DNA of 64,000 nucleotides, from NCBI RefSeq assembly GCF_000373925.1, contig NZ_KB892709.1, forward strand, positions 76,259 to 140,258, in the 5' to 3' direction. The stretch's first letter is position 1, and each line of letters begins with the position of its first letter. This DNA comes from Actinopolymorpha alba DSM 45243. GTDB lineage: Bacteria > Actinomycetota > Actinomycetes > Propionibacteriales > Actinopolymorphaceae. Positions 1,826 to 9,942 of this stretch are shown here, one piece after another. The translations under genes were made by a program, and so were the position numbers. The notes below the pieces were generated by a model. It saw nothing but the letters and a program-made list of their open reading frames with translations. It was not told the DNA's origin and made no database searches.

Positions 1826-2377
1826 TCACTTCAGCAGAGCGCGATGTGCTGCTTCCGTGACAAGCTGTTGTGCGGTCGCTTCGGGTGTGAGCGCGGATGT
1901 GTCGAACCACCAGCCGACATCGCTGAAGTCCCGTCGCAAGTCGGCCTCGAGCTTGTGGTAGCCGTCGAACTCCCAACGCTCGCTGACTTCACGCGTCGCG
2001 TTGCGCTGCTGACAGACCTCCACCGTCGGTGCAAGGGTGACCAACCGGACTGGTCGCGGAGCCAGCAGGCCGACCAGGAATTCCAGCTCCGCAAGGTCTG
2101 TCACGAGCTGGTCGATCAGCACTGTGAAGCCGGAATCGATGAAGTTGTTGGCCAAGCCGCACAGATTCCGGTCACAGAGCTCCGCCTGCCGCCTCGCCTC
2201 GTTCACGGGCTCGCCCAGTCGCCAGACGCGACCGCTGAGGATCATCTCGTTCACATCGTCGGCTTTGATCCGAGCCGCTCGAGGCAGCAGCCGGGCGGCC
2301 AGCCCAGTCACCGTCGACTTCCCCGCCGCTGGCATCCCGGACACGATCACGCATCCTGGCAAGTCATCTGTGGTCAC
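1826..2377 (-). CDS. Small P-loop kinase (AAA_33 / phosphotransferase-like)
   Basis: A 183-residue P-loop protein of the nucleotide-kinase or chloramphenicol-phosphotransferase-like group. Walker A is GMPAAGKST at about residues 14-22, and a lid-like Arg-rich segment (QQRNATREVSERW) lies near residue 130. Such proteins phosphorylate small molecules or nucleotides; the substrate cannot be predicted. The start is a GTG with MTTDDLPG following. It is the first gene of the accessory island and the first of three different small P-loop kinases within about 7 kb. No operon partner is evident: the neighbours are an integrase remnant on the other strand and a gap. Confidence 0.8.
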   Translation of the reverse strand: MTTDDLPGCVIVSGMPAAGKSTVTGLAARLLPRAARIKADDVNEMILSGRVWRLGEPVNEARRQAELCDRNLCGLANNFIDSGFTVLIDQLVTDLAELEFLVGLLAPRPVRLVTLAPTVEVCQQRNATREVSERWEFDGYHKLEADLRRDFSDVGWWFDTSALTPEATAQQLVTEAAHRALLK

Positions 2378-2464
2378 GGGAACGATCGTGCCGAGGAGCC
2401 TCGCTAGGTAGCAACTGCTTATCGGCGCAGGCGCATCCTGAAGGTACCGAACTGGTGCATCGCG

Positions 2465-2851
2465 ATGCTGCGCGCAAGCCTTATGAATGGCGCTCAGTTG
2501 GACGAACCGATCTTTGCTGACTCGCGCGGGGGATATCGCGACCCGGCCAACGTCTGCCGCGACCTACGAGAGGCGCGCTCACCTGTAGGAGGGGAGACGC
2601 GCCAGGAGCTTGGACGCAGGCTCCCGAAGGTGCGGCGGTCGACCCGACTCACTCAGGCCGACACCGCGAATCGGCTGGGCTGGCCACAATCGCGGGTCAG
2701 CCTGCTCGAGACAGCCCGAGTGCGGCCTGACCTGACAGACGCGGCACTGCTACTGGACCTTGACCCACATGGACCGGGTTCGGCGGCCACCTCGACTGAG
2801 GCGCAGAACTGGCTACGGATACCTGGACGATCTGTAGTCACGCTGGAGTAG
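2465..2851 (+). pseudogene. Remnant of tyrosine integrase fused to an HTH segment (left copy)
   Basis: A 128-codon remnant. Residues about 13-38 (DEPIFADSRGGYRDPANV, then RDLREAR) match the middle of actinobacterial phage/ICE integrases, just ahead of the HxxR box. They run in frame into an XRE-type HTH segment (LTQADTANRLGWPQSRVSLLE) like the N-terminus of DUF5753-family regulators. All catalytic boxes are missing. After about base 2761 the similarity to the right copy (near 9.3 kb) stops and the frame runs on into unrelated sequence overlapping the 3' end of the GNAT gene. No ribosome binding site is convincing. It is probably not a functional gene. Confidence 0.7.
2553..2761 (+). repeat. 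Direct repeat, left copy (integrase/HTH segment)
   Basis: About 209 bp that align without gaps to 9312-9520 (constant offset 6759), with an estimated 90% identity by eye. It covers the junction between integrase and HTH coding sequence. The two copies bracket the cargo of the island. Confidence 0.8.
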
Positions 2852-3388
2852 GCCGTAGATGGCGCCGTCGTGGTAGGTGCCGTCGTCCTCCAGGGAGTGC
2901 GCCCGACGTAGGCCTTCTCGCTGGAATCCGAGTCCTTGTAGGAGCCGTACCGACCCGTGGTTGTCGGCGATCGTCTGCGCCTCGACGCGATTGAGCCGCA
3001 TCCTTGTGAACCCGAACCGGAGCATCGCGTCGAGCGCCTCTGTTGCGATCCCGCGGCCCCAGTAGTCGCGACGGAGGTCGTAACCGATTTCTGCTCGATG
3101 GTGGAATCTCTCCCAGGAGTTGAACCCAAAGAGTCCGATGGCCTGGGTACTGCCCGAGAACGTGACTGCCCAGTGGATCGCGGTCTGTGTCGAGTACTCG
3201 CGACGCAATCTGTCGATCAGGGCGGCGGCTTCCGTTACATCCTGCATCGGCTCGGAGTTGTACTTCTGGACCTCCGGATCGCTGCGCCAGACGAACAGAT
3301 CGGCAGCGTCGTCGGGCTCCAGCTCCCGTAGCACTACCCGCTCGCTCGTCAGCCTCGGAAACGTTGAGAAGTCGAAGATGTCAGTCAC
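2813..3388 (-). CDS. GNAT family N-acetyltransferase (RimJ/RimL-like)
   Basis: A 191-residue acetyl-CoA dependent acetyltransferase of the RimJ/RimL group. It begins with the typical PRLTSERVVLRELEPDDA strand, and the acetyl-CoA binding loop follows at RRDYWGRGIATEAL. The family acetylates N-terminal amino groups, aminoglycosides or small amines; the substrate here is unknown. The GTG at 3388 was chosen because AGGAGGG lies about 9 nt upstream; the frame is open further upstream but with no family similarity. Its last codons overlap the tail of the left integrase remnant on the opposite strand, a sign of rearrangement. Confidence 0.88.
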   Translation of the reverse strand: MTDIFDFSTFPRLTSERVVLRELEPDDAADLFVWRSDPEVQKYNSEPMQDVTEAAALIDRLRREYSTQTAIHWAVTFSGSTQAIGLFGFNSWERFHHRAEIGYDLRRDYWGRGIATEALDAMLRFGFTRMRLNRVEAQTIADNHGSVRLLQGLGFQREGLRRAHSLEDDGTYHDGAIYGLLQRDYRSSRYP

Positions 3389-3758
3389 TCTGCACGCCCT
3401 CCTGCCGCACCAATAGTGGATGAGAGTAGGGGTCCGTGCAGAGGGCCGGCCTGCGGCCTGCCGGCATCGCGGCGACGTTGCTGGCAGTGCGCGGCGTCCT
3501 TGGTCGTTGGCCCGTTTCACCCAATCAACAACGGCAGAGCGAGCGCAGGCAGTGCAAGGCCAGCATCGCCGCCGCCGTCGGCTGCAGGAGGCCTTGGTTG
3601 AAGGAGCGGCAGGGTTTGCTCGGTGTCCTGCATCGGGTCGCGGTGGTTGGCTGATCGTCGGCCTGGTGCTGCTCGTCGTTCGCCATCTGTCTGGGTCGAC
3701 TCGCGTCCAAAAGTGGGGGTTAGGTGTGGGTGTCCCCGCTGCCAGCCGGGTCAGGATG
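3389..3758. other. Gap without a supported gene
   Basis: About 370 bp between the GNAT start and the broken paralogue. Only GC-rich overlapping frames with no recognisable protein are seen. A short inverted repeat (GCCGGC around 3446 and 3467) is present. It presumably holds the GNAT promoter. Confidence 0.5.
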
Positions 3759-3899
3759 TCAGTCCAGCCAGGCAGCGTCGTCGAGGTTGGTGGTGAACTC
3801 GGCGGTCTGCCATGCGGTTCGTGTGTCGGCGCTGTAGTCGGACTGGTAGATGACTATGCGTCGCCCGTCGACGAGTCGTACGACATTGCCGGTGCCGCG
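3759..3899 (-). pseudogene. Truncated paralogue of the adjacent membrane-anchored protein
   Basis: Reading the minus strand gives about 46 residues ending in a stop (VIYQSDYSADTRTAWQTAEF, then TTNLDDAAWLD). This matches the C-terminus of the intact neighbour (VVIYRASDGSPDMTAW, then ELTTDLDKVTWLH). Upstream codons and the N-terminal membrane anchor are gone. About 105 bp further upstream a 44-bp segment is shared with the region upstream of the intact gene, so this is the decayed half of a tandem duplication. Confidence 0.7.
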
Positions 3900-4003
3900 A
3901 GAGTGACCTGGAGGGATCGGCCTGGAGGAGATACCAAGTTGTTGCCTGCGTTCATTGCGCGATCATGCCAGGTCGCCGGCCGACGTGGAGGCCGAATCGG
4001 CAG

Positions 4004-4047
4004 CTCGGAGGGTTCGCGGGTCTGGCCGGTGGCTTGGCTTGGTCCGG
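4004..4047. repeat. 44-bp direct repeat, copy 1 (upstream of broken paralogue)
   Basis: It begins CTCGGAGGGTTCGCGGG and recurs at 4637-4680 with three or four differences. Its position upstream of both gene copies shows the duplication unit was about 630 bp. Confidence 0.75.
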
Positions 4048-4051
4048 CGGC

Positions 4052-4588
4052 TTAGTGTAGCCAGGTCACCTTGTCGAGGTCGGTGGTGAGTTCGAGGGTG
4101 CTCCATGCCGTCATGTCGGGGCTGCCATCACTTGCTCGATAGATGACGACTTGGGTCTGCCCAAACTGCCGTTGCAGGTGGGTCGCGTCGCTCCTCGTAG
4201 AGCACAGCTCGCCCCTGCTGGTGGGGTCCTGCACGCAGAGCACGATGACAGGGAGACCGTCCTCGTATGCGCCTTCCTTGGGGAGGAAGTGCACGCTCCA
4301 GGACGAGGCCCGCTTGGTGGTGGTCTCGTCGTCGAGCGACATCGGGTCGGGGTCGTCGTCAAAGGTGCCGTAGTCGTACTCGCGGGCGAAGTCGTACCCG
4401 GCCGGAAGGCTTACCGGAAGAACTGGTCTCATCCCACTGACCCGGTTCAGTTCTTCCCGGACAACTTCGCGATCGCTCATGTCGGGCGGGCCTGGCCGAC
4501 CGATGTTCGAGATGACGCTACCGGCGGCGATTACGACGGCGGCGACACCAGCTATGGCCCATGGCGGTACCTGTCGAGTGGGGTTCAC
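4052..4588 (-). CDS. Membrane-anchored hypothetical protein
   Basis: 178 residues, no family recognised. A short basic N-terminus (VNPTRQVPPW) is followed by one hydrophobic helix (AIAGVAAVVIAAGSVISNIG) and an extracytoplasmic region of about 140 residues. That region is rich in Asp/Glu, with two cysteines (VLCVQ and GELCSTR) that could form a disulfide. The GTG start is chosen because it places the anchor at the N-terminus; the frame is open for another ~114 codons upstream but these look non-coding and overlap repeated DNA. A broken tandem paralogue lies directly downstream. The gene follows the Clp_N gene in the same direction after a structured 340-bp gap. Confidence 0.6.
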   Translation of the reverse strand: MNPTRQVPPWAIAGVAAVVIAAGSVISNIGRPGPPDMSDREVVREELNRVSGMRPVLPVSLPAGYDFAREYDYGTFDDDPDPMSLDDETTTKRASSWSVHFLPKEGAYEDGLPVIVLCVQDPTSRGELCSTRSDATHLQRQFGQTQVVIYRASDGSPDMTAWSTLELTTDLDKVTWLH

Positions 4589-4636
4589 GCGCTGATGATG
4601 ACACCTGGTCGGGCAGTCGGGAAGCGGCACCGAAGG

Positions 4637-4680
4637 CTCGGAGGGTTCGCGGGTTTGGCAGGTGGCCTGGCTTGGTCCGG
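4637..4680. repeat. 44-bp direct repeat, copy 2 (upstream of intact gene)
   Basis: Partner of 4004-4047, lying about 50 bp upstream of the GTG start of the membrane-anchored protein. It may contain its promoter. Confidence 0.75.
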
Positions 4681-4686
4681 GAGAGT

Positions 4687-4757
4687 GGGGGCCCGTAGCC
4701 TGTCCCGGCTCGGCGGGCAGCTTGCAGCCTGCCGCCAACCGTCCGCCGCGGGCCCCC
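4687..4757. repeat. Nested inverted repeats in the gap after the Clp_N gene
   Basis: Outer arms GGGGGCCCG (4687-4695) and CGGGCCCCC (4749-4757) pair perfectly. Inside lies a second imperfect hairpin (GGCGGGCAG with CTGCCGCC). It could act as terminator for the minus-strand Clp_N gene. No gene is supported in 4589-4932. Confidence 0.45.
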
Positions 4758-4932
4758 GGGCTTCGGGACCCGGACCAAGCGAGGTGGGTAAAGCCGCCGG
4801 CCCGCCCTAGCCACAGACCGGTGGCGGACGACAGTGCCGCGGAACAGTGATGGTCGTCAGTCTTCTGGCGGCGCTCTTCGCTGTGTTCGCGCCCAGCGGG
4901 TAGTTCCGACACGAGCCGATCCGCATTCAAGC

Positions 4933-5442
4933 TCAGGGAGCGTCAGAGGCGAGCGCGGCTTCGAGTCGTGCCATGTCGGTGCCGGCCGCGTTCGCTGCTG
5001 AGGCTAGGTGGTGGGGCCCCACATAGCCGCGGCGTGCCCAGTCGCGTGACTCCTCGATAACGCCGAGAAGGAGATGGCGAGGTGCTATGTCACCGCCTCG
5101 TTCACGTTGCGCAGCTTGCAGGCCAAGTCCGGCGATCATGCATGAGCGAGGAGTGAAGGGGATCGGGCCATCTGGGCTTGGACCGGGCTCCTCCTGGAGC
5201 TGGGCGAGAAAGAGGTCGCGTGTGATCCCGTGGGTCGCGAGCACGTCGGCGATCGCGGGCTCGGCGGCCATCAAGCCGAGCACGATGTGCTCGGTACCGA
5301 CGTGGTTGTCGTCCATGACGCGGGCCTCATGCAAGGCCTGCGAAAGGCACCGCTGAGCCGATGGACTGAGGTGGTCGCGGGCTTGGTTCGCAAGTGCCTC
5401 TGCCTCGGCGACGTAGCTTTCGGGTGCTGCTGGACCGGTCAT
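4933..5442 (-). CDS. Orphan Clp N-domain protein
   Basis: 169 residues made of a Clp_N (R) domain with two helical repeats (about residues 20-80 and 95-160). The first carries the typical ARVMDDNHVGTEHIVLGLMA segment. In ClpA/ClpC this domain binds substrates and adaptors, but here no AAA+ ATPase module is attached. Stand-alone Clp_N proteins are frequent in actinobacteria, where they may act as decoys, adaptors or regulator partners; the role is not established. A long palindrome 41-64 bp upstream is a likely operator, yet no regulator gene is adjacent. Confidence 0.8.
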   Translation of the reverse strand: MTGPAAPESYVAEAEALANQARDHLSPSAQRCLSQALHEARVMDDNHVGTEHIVLGLMAAEPAIADVLATHGITRDLFLAQLQEEPGPSPDGPIPFTPRSCMIAGLGLQAAQRERGGDIAPRHLLLGVIEESRDWARRGYVGPHHLASAANAAGTDMARLEAALASDAP

Positions 5443-5482
5443 CCCGGTACCTCCGATGCGGCGTTGAGCTCCTGTCCAGGGC

Positions 5483-5506
5483 GAGGTGATATCACGATAT
5501 CACCTC
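5483..5506. promoter_or_regulatory. Operator-like palindrome upstream of the Clp_N gene
   Basis: Two perfect 11-bp arms, GAGGTGATATC and GATATCACCTC, are separated by 2 bp, 41 bp upstream of the Clp_N start. The symmetry and AT-rich core are typical of a dimeric winged-helix repressor site (PadR- or GntR-like, inference). No regulator is encoded next to it. Confidence 0.65.
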
Positions 5507-5620
5507 ACTCTCAAGGTGCCTGGTCGATCATGGCGCCATCTCGCCCGCGGCGAGGCGAGCGCCGGCTGGACACCCGCCTGACGCTCCCGACCAGTTCCGG
5601 CCGAGCTCCGCAGGCGGCGT

Positions 5621-5700
5621 ACCCGGAACCTGTACAGGGCTGCAAGGCCAAGCCTGACGGTCGACACGTCGAGCCTTGCAGCCCTGTACAGAACCCGGGT
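5621..5700 (-). terminator. Long hairpin downstream of the PhyH gene
   Basis: Two 28-nt arms pair across a 24-nt loop. The innermost 19 pairs are perfect (CTGTACAGGGCTGCAAGGC on the left arm), followed by a 3-nt mismatch and six more pairs. It lies 80-160 nt after the stop of the minus-strand dioxygenase gene and could end its transcript. It is unusually long for a terminator. Confidence 0.5.
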
Positions 5701-5779
5701 GCGGGGCAAGCTGTCCGACCGACGGCAGAGAAGCCTCGAAGCTGAGGTTGCTGCTACGCCTCTTCAGCGCAGTCCGCTG

Positions 5780-6565
5780 CTAGGGCTCTTGGTCCGGGCA
5801 TCGGGAGATGAAGTCGGTGAGCATCATCCGGGGTGAGTCGAGTGCGTTCGGTGCCGCGACGTGGAGGATGCGTTGGTTCATCAGTATGACGTCGCCGGGT
5901 TGGCCGCAGAGTTCGACCACTCGAACGTGCGTGTCGTCGATGGTGGCTCCGTCATCGAGGTATCGGCGGAGCTGACCGCTGTTGGTGACGGGTTCGCGCC
6001 AAAGGTCGGCGAACCATGGGTAGTCGCGGGCGAGCTTGTCTTTCATCTTGCTGGTCTTCATGTGCCCGCCGGCTCGTTGGCAGAGTTGCCAGGTGATGCG
6101 GTGTGAGCCGGCTATGACCAGTGTTCCGCCGCCGCGCGGTCGAACGTCGTCGAGGAAGGTGAAGGCGACGAGTCCGGGCAGGACTTCTTCGGTGGACCAC
6201 GCGGTGGAGTCGACGTGCCATCGGGTCGCCGGTATCGCCCACTCGTGCTCTGGGTTTGGGAAGGTCACGAGCGGGCCGCCCCAGTGCTCAGGGGGGTTCC
6301 TCGCCGGTCCTAGCAAGTCGGTGATGGGCTCAGGTAGGTGTTCTCTCAGTTCGTCGAAGGCGCCTGTGCGCGTCAGCATCTTGAAGTGGACGCGTCCGTC
6401 GACGGTCTTCCAGGTCGTGGGGTCGTCTTGCTTCCGGCCGTGCATGATTGACAGGAAGGCCCACAGGCGGTCGCGCATCGCCAAGGCCTTGGCCGCCGGC
6501 ACCGTCTGGGGCAGTGAGAGCAGGCCGTGCAGCTCAAACTCTGAAATCTGCTCGTTGGTCAACAT
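5780..6565 (-). CDS. Phytanoyl-CoA dioxygenase (PhyH) family protein
   Basis: 261-residue Fe(II)/2-oxoglutarate-dependent oxygenase of the PhyH superfamily. The HxD metal motif is RWHVDS (about residue 117) and the distal histidine is in QRILHVAAPN (about residue 238), so all three facial-triad ligands appear present. A 2-oxoglutarate binding Arg is probably in the final SPRMMLTDF segment. Members hydroxylate acyl chains, antibiotics or small metabolites; the substrate is unknown. It is a single-gene unit in the island, read toward the long hairpin. A different PhyH gene lies near 36 kb; the two look only distantly related. Confidence 0.85.
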   Translation of the reverse strand: MLTNEQISEFELHGLLSLPQTVPAAKALAMRDRLWAFLSIMHGRKQDDPTTWKTVDGRVHFKMLTRTGAFDELREHLPEPITDLLGPARNPPEHWGGPLVTFPNPEHEWAIPATRWHVDSTAWSTEEVLPGLVAFTFLDDVRPRGGGTLVIAGSHRITWQLCQRAGGHMKTSKMKDKLARDYPWFADLWREPVTNSGQLRRYLDDGATIDDTHVRVVELCGQPGDVILMNQRILHVAAPNALDSPRMMLTDFISRCPDQEP

Positions 6566-6750
6566 CGCTCACTTCTCCTGGCTATGGCCGGACCGGCGAT
6601 GTGACCCCCGGACACAGCGAGTCACGTCGCGAGATCCGGCGAACCTGAATCTGGCGTGTGACTTCGGGTGTCGGCCCGAAGGCAGCACCGACACTACAGA
6701 TCGGAGCTTGTCGCTGCTACACGATTGCCTTCCGGTGAAGCACCAGCCAA

Positions 6751-6769
6751 CGTGCAACCCACGTGCAAC
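6751..6769. repeat. Repeat doublet 1 (CGTGCAAC x2, 11-nt period)
   Basis: CGTGCAAC at 6751 and again at 6762. The same arrangement recurs at 9054 and, with CGTGCCCC units, at 8193. It lies about 110 bp upstream of the next plus-strand gene. The rest of 6566-6879 shows no gene. Confidence 0.6.
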
Positions 6770-6879
6770 TAGTGCCGTATCAGGCAACGTTTGCCCCCTC
6801 GCGGCCCAGGGACGCGGGCCAGGGCTCGCCCCACCTTCATGGCCGCGCCGGACAGGCACGGCGCTGGAATGATGGCGGC

Positions 6880-7251
6880 ATGACGAGATTTGACGGTGTC
6901 CTGATCGAGTTCTGCCAGGGACAGTGGGGGGCGGACGAGACGATGGGACTCACGCTCTCGGTGTGGGGACGGACAGCCGACGGGCGGCGGTTCATCGAAG
7001 CTGATGCGCAGCGTCCGTTGGCCGGGCTCCAGGATATCGATCTACTCGTGGAGAACTGTGGCTGTCCCTTCGTCAGCGAGGACGGCAAGCAGGAGGCGAT
7101 CGACCTGCTGGCCGCGGCGTTTCCGGGCGCCGAGATCCGCTGCTACGAGCCGTCCGAAGCGGATGAATGCGAGCTAGAGGCGGCGGGAGCCGCCCTACTG
7201 TGGGAACACGAGATCACCTGGGCCTGGTGCGAGAACTGTTGTGCAAAATGA
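6880..7251 (+). CDS. Acidic hypothetical protein with Cys-rich tail
   Basis: 123 residues, no family recognised. The ATG start gives MTRFDGVLIEFCQGQWG. The protein is acidic, and its C-terminus ends in ITWAWCENCCAK; with ENCGCPF near residue 60 this gives a set of cysteines that could bind a metal. A -10-like AATGAT lies 6 nt before the ATG and no good Shine-Dalgarno is seen, so the mRNA may be leaderless. It probably belongs to the island cargo. The long open frame upstream of this ATG has no support. Confidence 0.55.
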   Translation: MTRFDGVLIEFCQGQWGADETMGLTLSVWGRTADGRRFIEADAQRPLAGLQDIDLLVENCGCPFVSEDGKQEAIDLLAAAFPGAEIRCYEPSEADECELEAAGAALLWEHEITWAWCENCCAK

Positions 7252-7520
7252 CTCCTGTTACCCGCCCGACCGCCGAGGTCACCCATCGCGGTCGGCATCG
7301 CCCCGGCCTCGTTCTCCCAACCGTGCAAACGTTGCCTGCCACAGCACTAGCAGCGAGACCGCGCTGGAAGATCTTGGGCCTTCAGCGGGCGGGCGAGCCG
7401 TCCTGGCAGCGTAAACGGGCCACCGGCGGACGGTCCCGGATGAGCGAGGATGGGTGCCTAATCCGTGTGTCGTTCGTTCGCACGGCAGCCGCCCCTGGTC
7501 AATAGCGACCTGTAAGCCGG

Positions 7521-8081
7521 TCAGCGACGTACGGTGTCGAGGACCGTCTGGACGACCGCCTCGATCGGCACGCTCGTGTCGATCTCCAGCGTGCAACCGT
7601 CACGCAGCAAGGGCTCGACAGTCTCGACATAGGTCAGGACGTCGGCAAGCTCGTCAGGGTGTTTGCCGTAGGGATTGTTGGTTCGGGTGGCCAACCGTTC
7701 GACGATCACCGGTACCGGAGCACTGAGGAGGATGATGTGGTCGAACTGGCGGTAGAACTTCCCCTGGTTCCGCACCGTGCCACTGACGAACAGCACCTCG
7801 GCGTCCTCGGTCGACAGGAGCTGCTGGAACTCCTCGTGCCACATCCACTCTCCGTCCTGACCAGCCGTGTCGGCCCCATCGGCTGCGTTGGTCGTATGGG
7901 AGTCGGCGGACTCGGGCGAGTCATTCTGGCTGGCTTGCCTGGCGTCACTGGACCGGGGCACGAACCGTTGCAGGCTCGGGTGGCTGTCGCTATCCACGGT
8001 CTTGTAACCGTGCGAAGCCAACCTGTTGAGCAACGTCGACTTACCGGTGCCCGACATCCCGGTGATGAGTACCCGGAGCAT
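7521..8081 (-). CDS. Small P-loop kinase with a Ser/Asp-rich insert
   Basis: 186-residue P-loop protein. Walker A is GMSGTGKST at about residues 8-16, and a lid-like region (VERLATRTNNPYGK) lies near residue 137. Between residues about 45 and 80 there is a polar low-complexity insert (SSDARQASQNDSPESADSHT) not expected in compact nucleoside kinases. The fold resembles shikimate/adenylate kinase-like AAA_18 proteins; the substrate is unknown. It is divergent from the next kinase gene with a 397-bp gap that contains repeat doublet 2 and no other gene. Confidence 0.75.
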   Translation of the reverse strand: MLRVLITGMSGTGKSTLLNRLASHGYKTVDSDSHPSLQRFVPRSSDARQASQNDSPESADSHTTNAADGADTAGQDGEWMWHEEFQQLLSTEDAEVLFVSGTVRNQGKFYRQFDHIILLSAPVPVIVERLATRTNNPYGKHPDELADVLTYVETVEPLLRDGCTLEIDTSVPIEAVVQTVLDTVRR

Positions 8082-8192
8082 CCCGGCAGACTAGCCGGCT
8101 TTCGTCGGATGTGTGCGTCCTACTTCGGCGGTCGGAACGCCCTAACTCGGCGGGTCGGTGGCGTTGCCGCAGCGGCGTGCGGCTAGGCCGGC

Positions 8193-8211
8193 CGTGCCCC
8201 CCGCGTGCCCC
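8193..8211. repeat. Repeat doublet 2 (CGTGCCCC x2, 11-nt period)
   Basis: Variant of the doublets at 6751 and 9054. The flanks also align with the 9054 copy (CCGTGC at the left, CAAGC at the right). It lies between two divergent kinase genes. Confidence 0.5.
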
Positions 8212-8478
8212 AAGCCAGGGCCGATCAGAGTCCGCAGCGGTCAATGGCGGTCAGGTCGAATGGGCTCGGACGCGGGACGATCTACGCTCACGGCAGTCTG
8301 AGACCCAACGGTCCTTTGCAAGGCAGGGGCTGGGGTGCACAATCCCTCCGCCGCTCCCCTTGATGCTTCGTCCCTGGAGGTCTCGGGGAGAGGCGGCCAG
8401 CAGAAGCGCCAGATGGATGTTTGGCGGCACAGAAACTCACGTGCGGGACCCGACTCCAGCACGAAACGATGTCTGCCC

Positions 8479-9021
8479 ATGGCCGTTCAAGATGCAAGCC
8501 GCTCCGACACTGATCTCTTGCTCATCGCCGGCCGTTCGGGAGTCGGCAAGACTACCGTCAGCGTCGAGGTGTCGTCCCAGCTCAAGCGCTCAAACGTAGG
8601 TCACGCCCGTATCGACGGCGACTGGCTCGACCTCGCCTTCCCGCAGGCGCCGAGTGAGCTTTTCGACAGGAACTTCCGATCGCTGTGGCAGAACTACCAG
8701 GCTTTTGGTTGCACTCGCCTGATCTACTCCAACTGGGCCAGCATCAAGAACATGAAACGGATTGTCGGGCTGATAGGCGGACAGCCTCGCGTCATCGGCG
8801 TCCTGCTGCTTTGCTCGGACGAGACGGCAATACAGCGACTCGGGAGCCGCGAGACCGGCTACGACCTCCAATGGCATCTGGAAAACCTCAGGCAGACTCC
8901 GGTCAACGAGCGAGATCAGGATCAACTCACGCCCACTTGGGTAACGCGCGTGCACAGCGATAACCGCTCTGTCCAAGATGTGGCATCCGAAGTTGTCAGT
9001 CTTACTCGTTGGGTGCAGTGA
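8479..9021 (+). CDS. P-loop NTPase / small-molecule kinase
   Basis: About 180 residues from the ATG chosen here; an upstream in-frame ATG would add 48 residues with no similarity. Walker A is AGRSGVGKTT near residue 17. A substrate-binding type segment (HARIDGDWLDLAFPQ) follows near residue 40, and a C-terminal lid is seen (RLGSRETGYDLQWH). The architecture matches uncharacterised AAA/gluconokinase-like proteins of actinobacteria. Base composition looks lower in G+C than the chromosome around it, judged by eye, consistent with transfer. It is the third small P-loop kinase of the island. Confidence 0.75.
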   Translation: MAVQDASRSDTDLLLIAGRSGVGKTTVSVEVSSQLKRSNVGHARIDGDWLDLAFPQAPSELFDRNFRSLWQNYQAFGCTRLIYSNWASIKNMKRIVGLIGGQPRVIGVLLLCSDETAIQRLGSRETGYDLQWHLENLRQTPVNERDQDQLTPTWVTRVHSDNRSVQDVASEVVSLTRWVQ

Positions 9022-9053
9022 GGCACGGCGTCCACATGAGAGGACTGGCGGGC

Positions 9054-9072
9054 CGTGCAACCCGCGTGCAAC
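9054..9072. repeat. Repeat doublet 3 (CGTGCAAC x2, 11-nt period)
   Basis: CGTGCAAC at 9054 and 9065, between the third kinase gene and the integrase remnant. Closely matches doublet 1, including the CCC after the first unit. Confidence 0.6.
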
Positions 9073-9247
9073 AAGCAGCCGGGTATCAACATGCCGAGGA
9101 TTTCCGTCACGCGCCCGACCACCCAGAACCGGCTCCGGACCCGCCACCAGAGGCCCCGCCGGCAGCCCACCACCGCCTGGATACCCCACCCCAACCACCC
9201 GTCCCGAATTTCTGTCATTTCTGTCAGAGGGTCCAGAGAGCTAGCCG

Positions 9248-9814
9248 TTGAGGGTCGCCCGATCTTCCCTGCCCAAGTTCGTCGGTGCGACCCCAACGGA
9301 CGCTCACCACGTCCGTCGCGACCTGCGAGAGGCGCGCTCACCTGTGGGAGCGGAGTCGCGCCAAGAGCTTGGACGCAGGCTCCCGAAGGTGCGGCGGTCG
9401 ACTCGACTCACTCAGGCCGACACTGCGAAGCGGCTTGGCTGGCCACAGTCGAGGGTCAGCCTGCTCGAGACAGCCCGAGTGCGGCTTGACCTGACGGACG
9501 CCGCACTGCTCCTGGATCTGTACAACGTGTCGGGAGCCGCTCGGGCGGACCGGCTGGACCTGGCTGGGCGGGCGGCCGAGGGCAGCCAGTCCGACGCACT
9601 GGCCTGGATCACGTCGCACGCTTTCCGCAAGACGACTGCGACGATCCTGGACGACGCGGGGCAGAGCGCACGGCAGATCGCCGACCAGCTCGGGCATGCC
9701 CGACCCTCGCTCACTCAGGACGTGTACATGGGACGGCGGGCCAAGAACCCGGATTCAGCAGCGGCTCTGGAGGCCGCCCTGAACAGGGACCGGGAGACCA
9801 AAACCATGGGATAA
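9248..9814 (+). pseudogene. C-terminal half of a tyrosine integrase with embedded HTH (right copy)
   Basis: 188 codons. RDLREARSPVG (integrase) runs into a DUF5753-type HTH segment (LTQADTAKRLGWPQSRVSLL, then LLDLYNVSGAARADRLDLAG). It then returns to integrase at ALAWITSHAFRKTTATIL. The HxxR box (HAFR), the third-box histidine (LGHARPS) and the nucleophile tyrosine (TQDVYMG) are present, but the N-terminal arm/core-binding domains and the first catalytic arginine are not. It cannot be a complete recombinase. It lies directly beside the tRNA-Lys 3' end, where an integrase gene normally sits in an integrated element. Either a real HTH insertion in the ancestral integrase or a recombinational scar. 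Confidence 0.75.
9312..9520 (+). repeat. Direct repeat, right copy (integrase/HTH segment)
   Basis: Partner of 2553-2761. The left copy keeps more integrase sequence on its 5' side, the right copy on its 3' side, so together they would reconstruct a longer integrase-HTH-integrase frame. Confidence 0.8.
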
Positions 9815-9836
9815 CCCATGGGAACCGGATACACGA

Positions 9837-9866: not shown

Positions 9867-9869
9867 CTG

Positions 9870-9942
<73 letters not shown>

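Follow-up and report, generated by a model that had tools for sequence, protein, structure and literature searches.

A helix-turn-helix domain within the catalytic domain of Kribbella-centered tyrosine integrases, with two decayed copies near a tRNA-Lys gene of Actinopolymorpha alba

Actinomycete integrative and conjugative elements (AICEs) of the pSAM2 type integrate at the 3' ends of tRNA genes by means of tyrosine integrases that have arm-binding, core-binding, and catalytic domains (PMC3218068 and PMC8138268, each in its available part). In the available part of PMC8138268, integrases of actinomycete integrative and conjugative elements are placed in the pSAM2 cluster of the IntTn916 subgroup, a subgroup that has beta strands inserted between catalytic strands 2 and 3. 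The catalytic-domain insertions described there are beta strands, short segments, and the insertion of integron integrases, and none of those is a helix-turn-helix (HTH) domain. Here, we describe integrases, called HTH-integrases below, that share the core-binding and catalytic domains, a putative arm-binding domain, and the tRNA 3'-end integration of the pSAM2 type but, unlike them, carry an XRE-type HTH domain of about 83 residues in the catalytic domain, before the HxxR box. Two decayed copies lie in a 64,000-nucleotide (nt) stretch of Actinopolymorpha alba DSM 45243 (contig NZ_KB892709.1, positions 76,259 to 140,258), which we call the window and whose own coordinates we use. No description of an HTH inside a tyrosine integrase was found in the open-access literature, searched mostly at title level.

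How integrase and HTH are joined is clearest in the intact relatives. An earlier note on the window had proposed that an HTH within the catalytic domain could be a novel recombinase architecture, to be given up if the order were absent from other genomes, and a homolog search of the kind that it suggested recovered full-length integrase-HTH-integrase proteins in the soil bacterium Kribbella. From 143 matching open reading frames, removal of duplicates, partial frames, and frames below 330 profile columns left 42 distinct HTH rows, each covering at least 330 of the 397 profile columns, and 44 distinct insertless rows; spacings and residues were counted on the alignment of these rows. All 42 HTH frames are open and full length or nearly so, and all read in the order Arg box, XRE/HTH_31 domain, HxxR, and Tyr. 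In alignment A1, the insert follows RDPxNVRRxLRxA and precedes LAWxxSHxFRK, which places it between the half bearing Arg-I and Lys and the HxxR box. The spacing between the Arg of RDP and the His of HxxR is 107 residues in every one of the 42 HTH rows; it is 24 to 27 residues in 42 of the 44 insertless relatives, and the remaining two have 36 and 56. Arg-I, Lys, His, and the Arg of HxxR are each present in all 42 HTH rows, and the Tyr is present in 39. By Pfam, HTH-integrases match Phage_int_M/SAM_3 and Phage_integrase, the core-binding and catalytic domains, and HTH_31 scored above its cutoff in all eight that were scanned; it was not listed for the insertless L032. From these sequences, we conclude that integrase-HTH-integrase is a real architecture and not a scar.

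The predicted fold agrees with an enzyme built around its insert. An AlphaFold model made with a 36-row alignment (mean predicted local distance difference test score [pLDDT], 86; predicted template modeling score [pTM], 0.66) has three strands (residues 15 to 21, 27 to 37, and 43 to 50) and a helix (residues 53 to 68) in its N-terminal part and five helices in the insert (residues 328 to 402). The best solved match by VIA-align was the Tn1549 integrase (PDB 6en2 and related entries; Z, 24.6; root mean square deviation, 2.5; 297 aligned residues). Because that match runs over model residues 76 to 468, the recombinase fold appears to close around the insert, a domain that the Tn1549 integrase lacks. 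Phage DS6A, with a long integrase, was also among the structural matches. A profile of the insert matched regulators: among the 12 solved chains listed, the best was the Xre-family regulator of ICEBs1, which we take to be ImmR, and the others included a DNA-binding protein, "DBP48," 434 Cro, and an immunity repressor. XRE/HTH_31 regulators such as those of ICEBs1 and 434 are separate proteins, unlike the insert. The insertion of integron integrases is short. Those enzymes resemble the HTH-integrases in having a lineage-specific insertion in the catalytic fold (PMC8138268, available part) and differ in that a whole HTH domain is inserted here.

Ratios of nonsynonymous to synonymous substitution rates (dN/dS) were 0.32 for the N-terminal part, 0.30 for the first catalytic part, 0.34 for the insert, and 0.25 for the last part, as computed from 16 non-overlapping pairs out of 370. 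Judged by these ratios, the insert is under purifying selection. In a quick maximum-likelihood tree of the 42 HTH and 44 insertless rows, from which the insert columns had been removed, the HTH rows formed two supported clades, of 14 and 28 rows, that met the insertless Kribbella integrase L032 at a fork which the tree did not resolve. As drawn, the tree needs two label changes, of which the supported branches force only one, and the insert may have had a single origin. We refer to three sets of rows: set A1 (7 rows), set A2 (7 rows, within A1 on the tree), and clade B (28 rows); 14 of the dN/dS pairs came from clade B and one each from sets A1 and A2.

The two window copies are remnants of one kind of tyrosine integrase in the same orientation. 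The left relic (2432 to 2761, plus strand) matches residues 274 to 383 of the intact relative L004 by tblastn (63% identity; E value, 8e-38) and spans the end of the first catalytic half, the junction, and the HTH, with HTH_31 at 2606 to 2761 (plus strand; Pfam E value, 1.8e-8; residues 48 to 99 of frame 2465). The right relic (9296 to 9814, plus strand) is homologous to residues 309 to 472 or so of L004 in alignment A1, and tblastn aligned residues 310 to 472 at 9299 to 9787 (74% identity; E value, 4e-71); it spans the junction, the HTH, and the C-terminal half from HxxR to Tyr. Its HTH_31 lies at 9365 to 9547 (plus strand; E value, 1.5e-10; residues 40 to 100 of frame 9248), and its C-terminal catalytic part (SHAFRK...QDVYMG) lies at 9602 to 9730 (plus strand; Phage_integrase E value, 1.2e-5; residues 119 to 161), the match of frame 9248 to 9811 scoring 25.6 bits, just below the curated 27.1. 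Thus, the earlier note had read the copies correctly: both join integrase to HTH, the right one resumes integrase past the HTH, and more integrase survives 5' in the left one and 3' in the right one. It had called the HTH "DUF5753-type"; the HTH part is HTH_31, and no DUF5753 match was listed by Pfam. The half with Arg-I and Lys is missing from both copies, the only catalytic residues left are HxxR and Tyr in the right copy, and the left copy has none. Neither copy, therefore, is a working recombinase, and the annotated starts at 2465 and 9248 are accidental.

How the copies came to differ argues for a past as working genes. A repeat search and blastn found a 211-nt direct repeat (2550 to 2760 and 9309 to 9519, both plus strand), 91% identical without gaps, and 13 synonymous and 5 nonsynonymous changes separate the copies over 69 codons (dN/dS, 0.14; binomial P = 2.5e-4). 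Because the differences are mostly synonymous, the copies appear to have diverged as functional, selected genes that were broken later and not as a duplicated scar. A tRNA-Lys(CTT) gene predicted by ARAGORN (9869 to 9942, minus strand), not mentioned in the earlier note, lies about 55 nt beyond the right relic, with its 3' end facing it; the HTH element of L106 adjoins the same tRNA type. The window yielded neither a repeat of the tRNA 3' end nor any other attachment (att) repeat and hence no demonstrated element end, and the earlier statement that the copies "bracket the island" holds as a description of position and not of element boundaries. Nor did the window contain the gene set of a pSAM2-type AICE: Pfam found no RepSA, FtsK, or Xis (excisionase) in nine frames scanned, only integrase relics. 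The arrangement fits a decayed tandem at tRNA-Lys(CTT), and the fragments are most likely relics of two mobile elements that once stood in tandem.

Where the architecture occurs points to Kribbella. When 57 genomes, the window genome among them, were searched at the protein level, 11 matches outside the window genome covered most of the query, all from Kribbella. Nine of these lay in frames of 486 to 530 codons, and the other two had frames of 189 and 214 codons; the frames read as integrase-HTH-integrase. In a sample of the order, 29 of 391 genomes matched at an E value of 1e-13 or lower, namely, 28 Kribbella genomes and the window genome; 8 of the 18 Kribbella genomes of the 57-genome search were among them. 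All 42 HTH frames came from Kribbella, and outside that genus only the window showed the order among the genomes sampled; the window genome itself yielded no copies besides the two decayed ones. In the class sample (394 genomes), the alignment A2 profile gave matches of at most 63.4 bits among those listed, mostly at positions 15 to 90 or so, which were taken for ordinary XRE regulators without being checked one by one. A profile running from HTH to Tyr (A5) matched eight other genomes by the C-terminal part alone, and the phylum sample (396 genomes) returned the window genome only; class and phylum samples apparently held few or no Kribbella, and a more diverged HTH-integrase could escape these searches. 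Viral contigs gave 32 candidates, none confirmed, and no HTH-integrase was evident among the plasmid matches listed or among the phage matches listed (30 of 54 and 25 of 637). The two phage records with over 80% coverage were phage REQ3, taken as L153, which is insertless on the tree.

Intact HTH-integrases of set A1 belong to elements at tRNA genes. In four cases, the integrase ends 25 to 27 nt from a tRNA-Thr(TGT) gene, and that of L106 ends 86 nt from tRNA-Lys(CTT). Exact copies of tRNA sequence, 38 to 58 bp long, were found as att repeats for three of the five A1 elements searched; none was found for G101, which is at a contig end, or for G092. In G059, an exact 38-bp copy of the tRNA-Thr 3' end lies about 11.1 kb away and encloses Int, Xis, RepSA, and an FtsK-like transfer protein, so that this element has the full pSAM2-type AICE set, including att repeats at a tRNA; a second HTH-integrase stands just past the repeat. 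In G030, a 41-bp copy of the tRNA-Lys end lies about 14.1 kb away and is followed by a clade B HTH-integrase. That element has an HTH_17 Xis, DUF3631, and the att repeat, and RepSA and FtsK were absent from the five other open reading frames scanned, so that the pSAM2-type set is incomplete among these frames. The G098 element ends in a 58-bp copy at a distance of about 21.7 kb and includes RepSA and Xis. These tandems resemble the tandem insertions at one tRNA gene described for AICEs of Frankia and Streptomyces avermitilis in the available part of PMC3218068.

Clade B keeps its place at tRNA-Lys by another layout. In 19 of the 28 rows, the integrase gene starts 206 to 276 nt downstream of tRNA-Lys and reads away from it, one more is 1,623 nt away, and 8 have no tRNA-Lys within 3.5 kb of available DNA, several of these loci carrying a tRNA-end-like piece at the same place. 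All 28 are from Kribbella and look like solitary residents of tRNA-Lys, with open frames under purifying selection, no adjacent Xis, and no att repeat in the stretches searched; they are possibly domesticated. About 250 nt upstream of the integrase gene in clade B loci, including L050, L042, and L107, the layout is conserved: a tRNA-Lys end, a terminator-like hairpin, and paired arm-like repeats are followed by a block like TnACTGTGCGTCACATCACATCG, CGTTGAGC, after which many rows have an inverted repeat next to the ribosome site. The letters of the arm-like pairs change in step in many rows. At the set A2 locus L108, two frames lie between tRNA-Thr and the HTH-integrase (5176 to 7094), the second of which starts, by its letters alone, with an HTH-like sequence.

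What the HTH does is less clear than where it sits. We lean toward a Kribbella-centered integrase family, related to AICE integrases, in which the HTH is an auxiliary operator-binding regulatory domain; regulation is the most likely role that the comparisons suggest, with real doubt. Intact members would integrate and excise their own elements by ordinary tyrosine recombination, the N-terminal domain would read the arm repeats, and the HTH would supply a separate sequence-specific DNA contact, most likely with an operator at the integrase promoter or beside attP. The integrase would then double as a repressor-like factor that regulates either its own expression or recombination. The hexamer CGTTGA occurs within 90 nt of the integrase start in 27 of 28 clade B rows and 6 of 7 A2 rows (33 of 35 where the integrase gene is its own unit), in 0 of 7 A1 rows, and in 0 of the 43 insertless rows (of 44) with at least 90 nt of upstream DNA. 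A precedent for coupling a repressor to integration is integration-dependent immunity in phage BPs, in which attP lies inside a separate repressor gene; here, by contrast, the HTH is part of the recombinase (PMC4557955, available part). Of the 25 phage matches listed out of 637, 20 had the annotation "immunity repressor" at a place under or next to the related integrase, and in Arthrobacter phages (e.g., H34 to H40) family-related integrases overlap or adjoin a gene annotated as an immunity repressor.

Several observations weigh against a regulatory integrase. CGTTGA was picked from the alignments before it was counted, which makes the contrast exploratory, and clade B rows are related and not independent. 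The hexamer is not palindromic, is absent near the integrase gene in set A1 even though A1 enzymes carry the HTH, and may belong to a promoter or leader; nor did the three clades prove to share an operator. The stretches searched for set A2 and clade B contained no att repeats, and those integrases may be resident rather than mobile. The aligned Tyr is absent from 3 of the 42 HTH rows, 26 rows have Gln at the second His position (14 have His), and a pTM of 0.66 leaves the domain orientation uncertain. Two other candidate signals were rejected: a clade B operator palindrome, GTGAC-N5-GTCAC, is present in some rows, broken in L107, L029, and L041, and was not found in the nine loci L106 to L112, L118, and L119, and a leader hairpin over the ribosome site, visible in many of 27 clade B rows, is broken in several others.

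An unlikely alternative, albeit the best of those considered, is that the HTH has no regulatory role and is an extra DNA clamp, at the target site or adjacent to the core, that strengthens or widens att binding. The insert adjoins the HxxR helix in a DNA-binding catalytic domain, and HTH members adjoin tRNA-Lys or tRNA-Thr. Insertless relatives adjoin tRNA-Lys too (L014 to L018 and L032), however, and thus the HTH is probably unneeded for reaching that target. Moreover, arm-like repeats are common to both kinds of integrase. Paired direct repeats, identified by eye, overlap or adjoin the integrase end in the HTH elements L106, L110, L112, and L118, like the pair AACCATGGGAT/AACCCATGGG that overlaps the integrase stop codon in the window (9802 to 9822, plus strand), and a similar layout in other letters was seen, by eye and with no statistics, in the insertless sisters L125, L032, and L016. 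Because insertless sisters show similar repeats, the N-terminal domain is the likely arm-repeat reader, and the HTH was rejected as arm binder.

We give a still lower probability to the HTH being a built-in directionality factor, an excisionase-like domain that makes a separate Xis dispensable. In its favor, tblastn with four Xis peptides found no Xis-like match (E value of 1e-3 or lower) within 500 nt upstream of the integrase gene in the 7 A2 and 28 clade B loci, and HTH_31 is among the excisionase-detecting profiles of PMC8138268 in its available part. But a separate Xis lies directly upstream of the integrase gene in 6 of 7 A1 elements (that of L106 is HTH_17), and because set A1 keeps it, the HTH need not replace Xis. 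The insertless sisters L032 and L017 also have a separate upstream Xis, and more distant Xis-like matches occur in set A2 and clade B (L111, -1710; L115, -1114; L009, +1335; L051, +7732), the match of L110 belonging to a neighboring element. As a general role, a built-in Xis is weakened by the A1 genes, and the HTH is probably neither an arm binder nor a simple Xis replacement.

Some XRE-like domains are oligomerization modules. It is conceivable on that ground, and in our view improbable, that the HTH no longer binds DNA and either makes protein-protein contacts (e.g., with element-encoded regulators) or is a neutral passenger; the dN/dS of the insert argues otherwise, as does its recognition-helix region, in which L51, E53, and R56 are invariant and R48 is nearly so (alignment A2, 10 rows). 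Finally, the notion that both window copies descend from one chance fusion that was later duplicated, which the earlier note had offered and which the presence of only decayed copies in this genome might have favored, is practically untenable and refuted by the homologs, as 42 of them share junctions that are the normal domain borders of the family, the differences between the copies are mostly synonymous, and neighboring tandem HTH-integrases stand in G059 and G030.

The surroundings of the window copies were compared with five congeners. The tRNA-Lys(CTT) gene adjoins an oxidoreductase gene in all five, and none of the window genes used as queries, a set without the Clp_N frame, was found beside it, apart from an integrase matched in G002. 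Homologs of the left-flank permease, 93 to 94% identical, sit elsewhere in four of the five, and so the comparison of empty sites that the earlier note had suggested confirmed the tRNA gene and did not reconstruct a clean empty site. Between the relics lie frames for a GNAT acetyltransferase (2813 to 3520, minus strand), a Clp_N-domain protein (4933 to 5442, minus strand), and a PhyH-like protein (5780 to 6565, minus strand); the PhyH-like and GNAT frames had no match beside this tRNA gene in the five congeners. P-loop kinase-like frames (AAA_33/AAA_18) stand in or beside this region at 1826 to 2377 (minus strand), 7521 to 8081 (minus strand), and 8335 to 9021 (plus strand; a weak match). An 87-nt direct repeat, 75% identical, occurs at 3961 to 4047 and 4594 to 4680.

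We raise tentatively, as less probable than not, that HTH-integrases are bifunctional recombinase-repressors, which would integrate at tRNA sites and bind an operator through the inserted domain, controlling their own gene or the direction of recombination, so that a separate regulator (and, in set A2 and clade B, an adjacent Xis) would be unneeded. Tyrosine recombinases are much-studied DNA enzymes, yet a whole DNA-binding domain of constant length, under selection, inside the catalytic domain did not turn up in the available part of PMC8138268 or in the literature searched. With intact elements, insertless sisters, and defined att sites to compare, the family offers a natural setting in which to examine how the directionality of recombination and the expression of the integrase can be built into one protein. 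The insert site may also be a natural insertion point for engineered regulated integrases.

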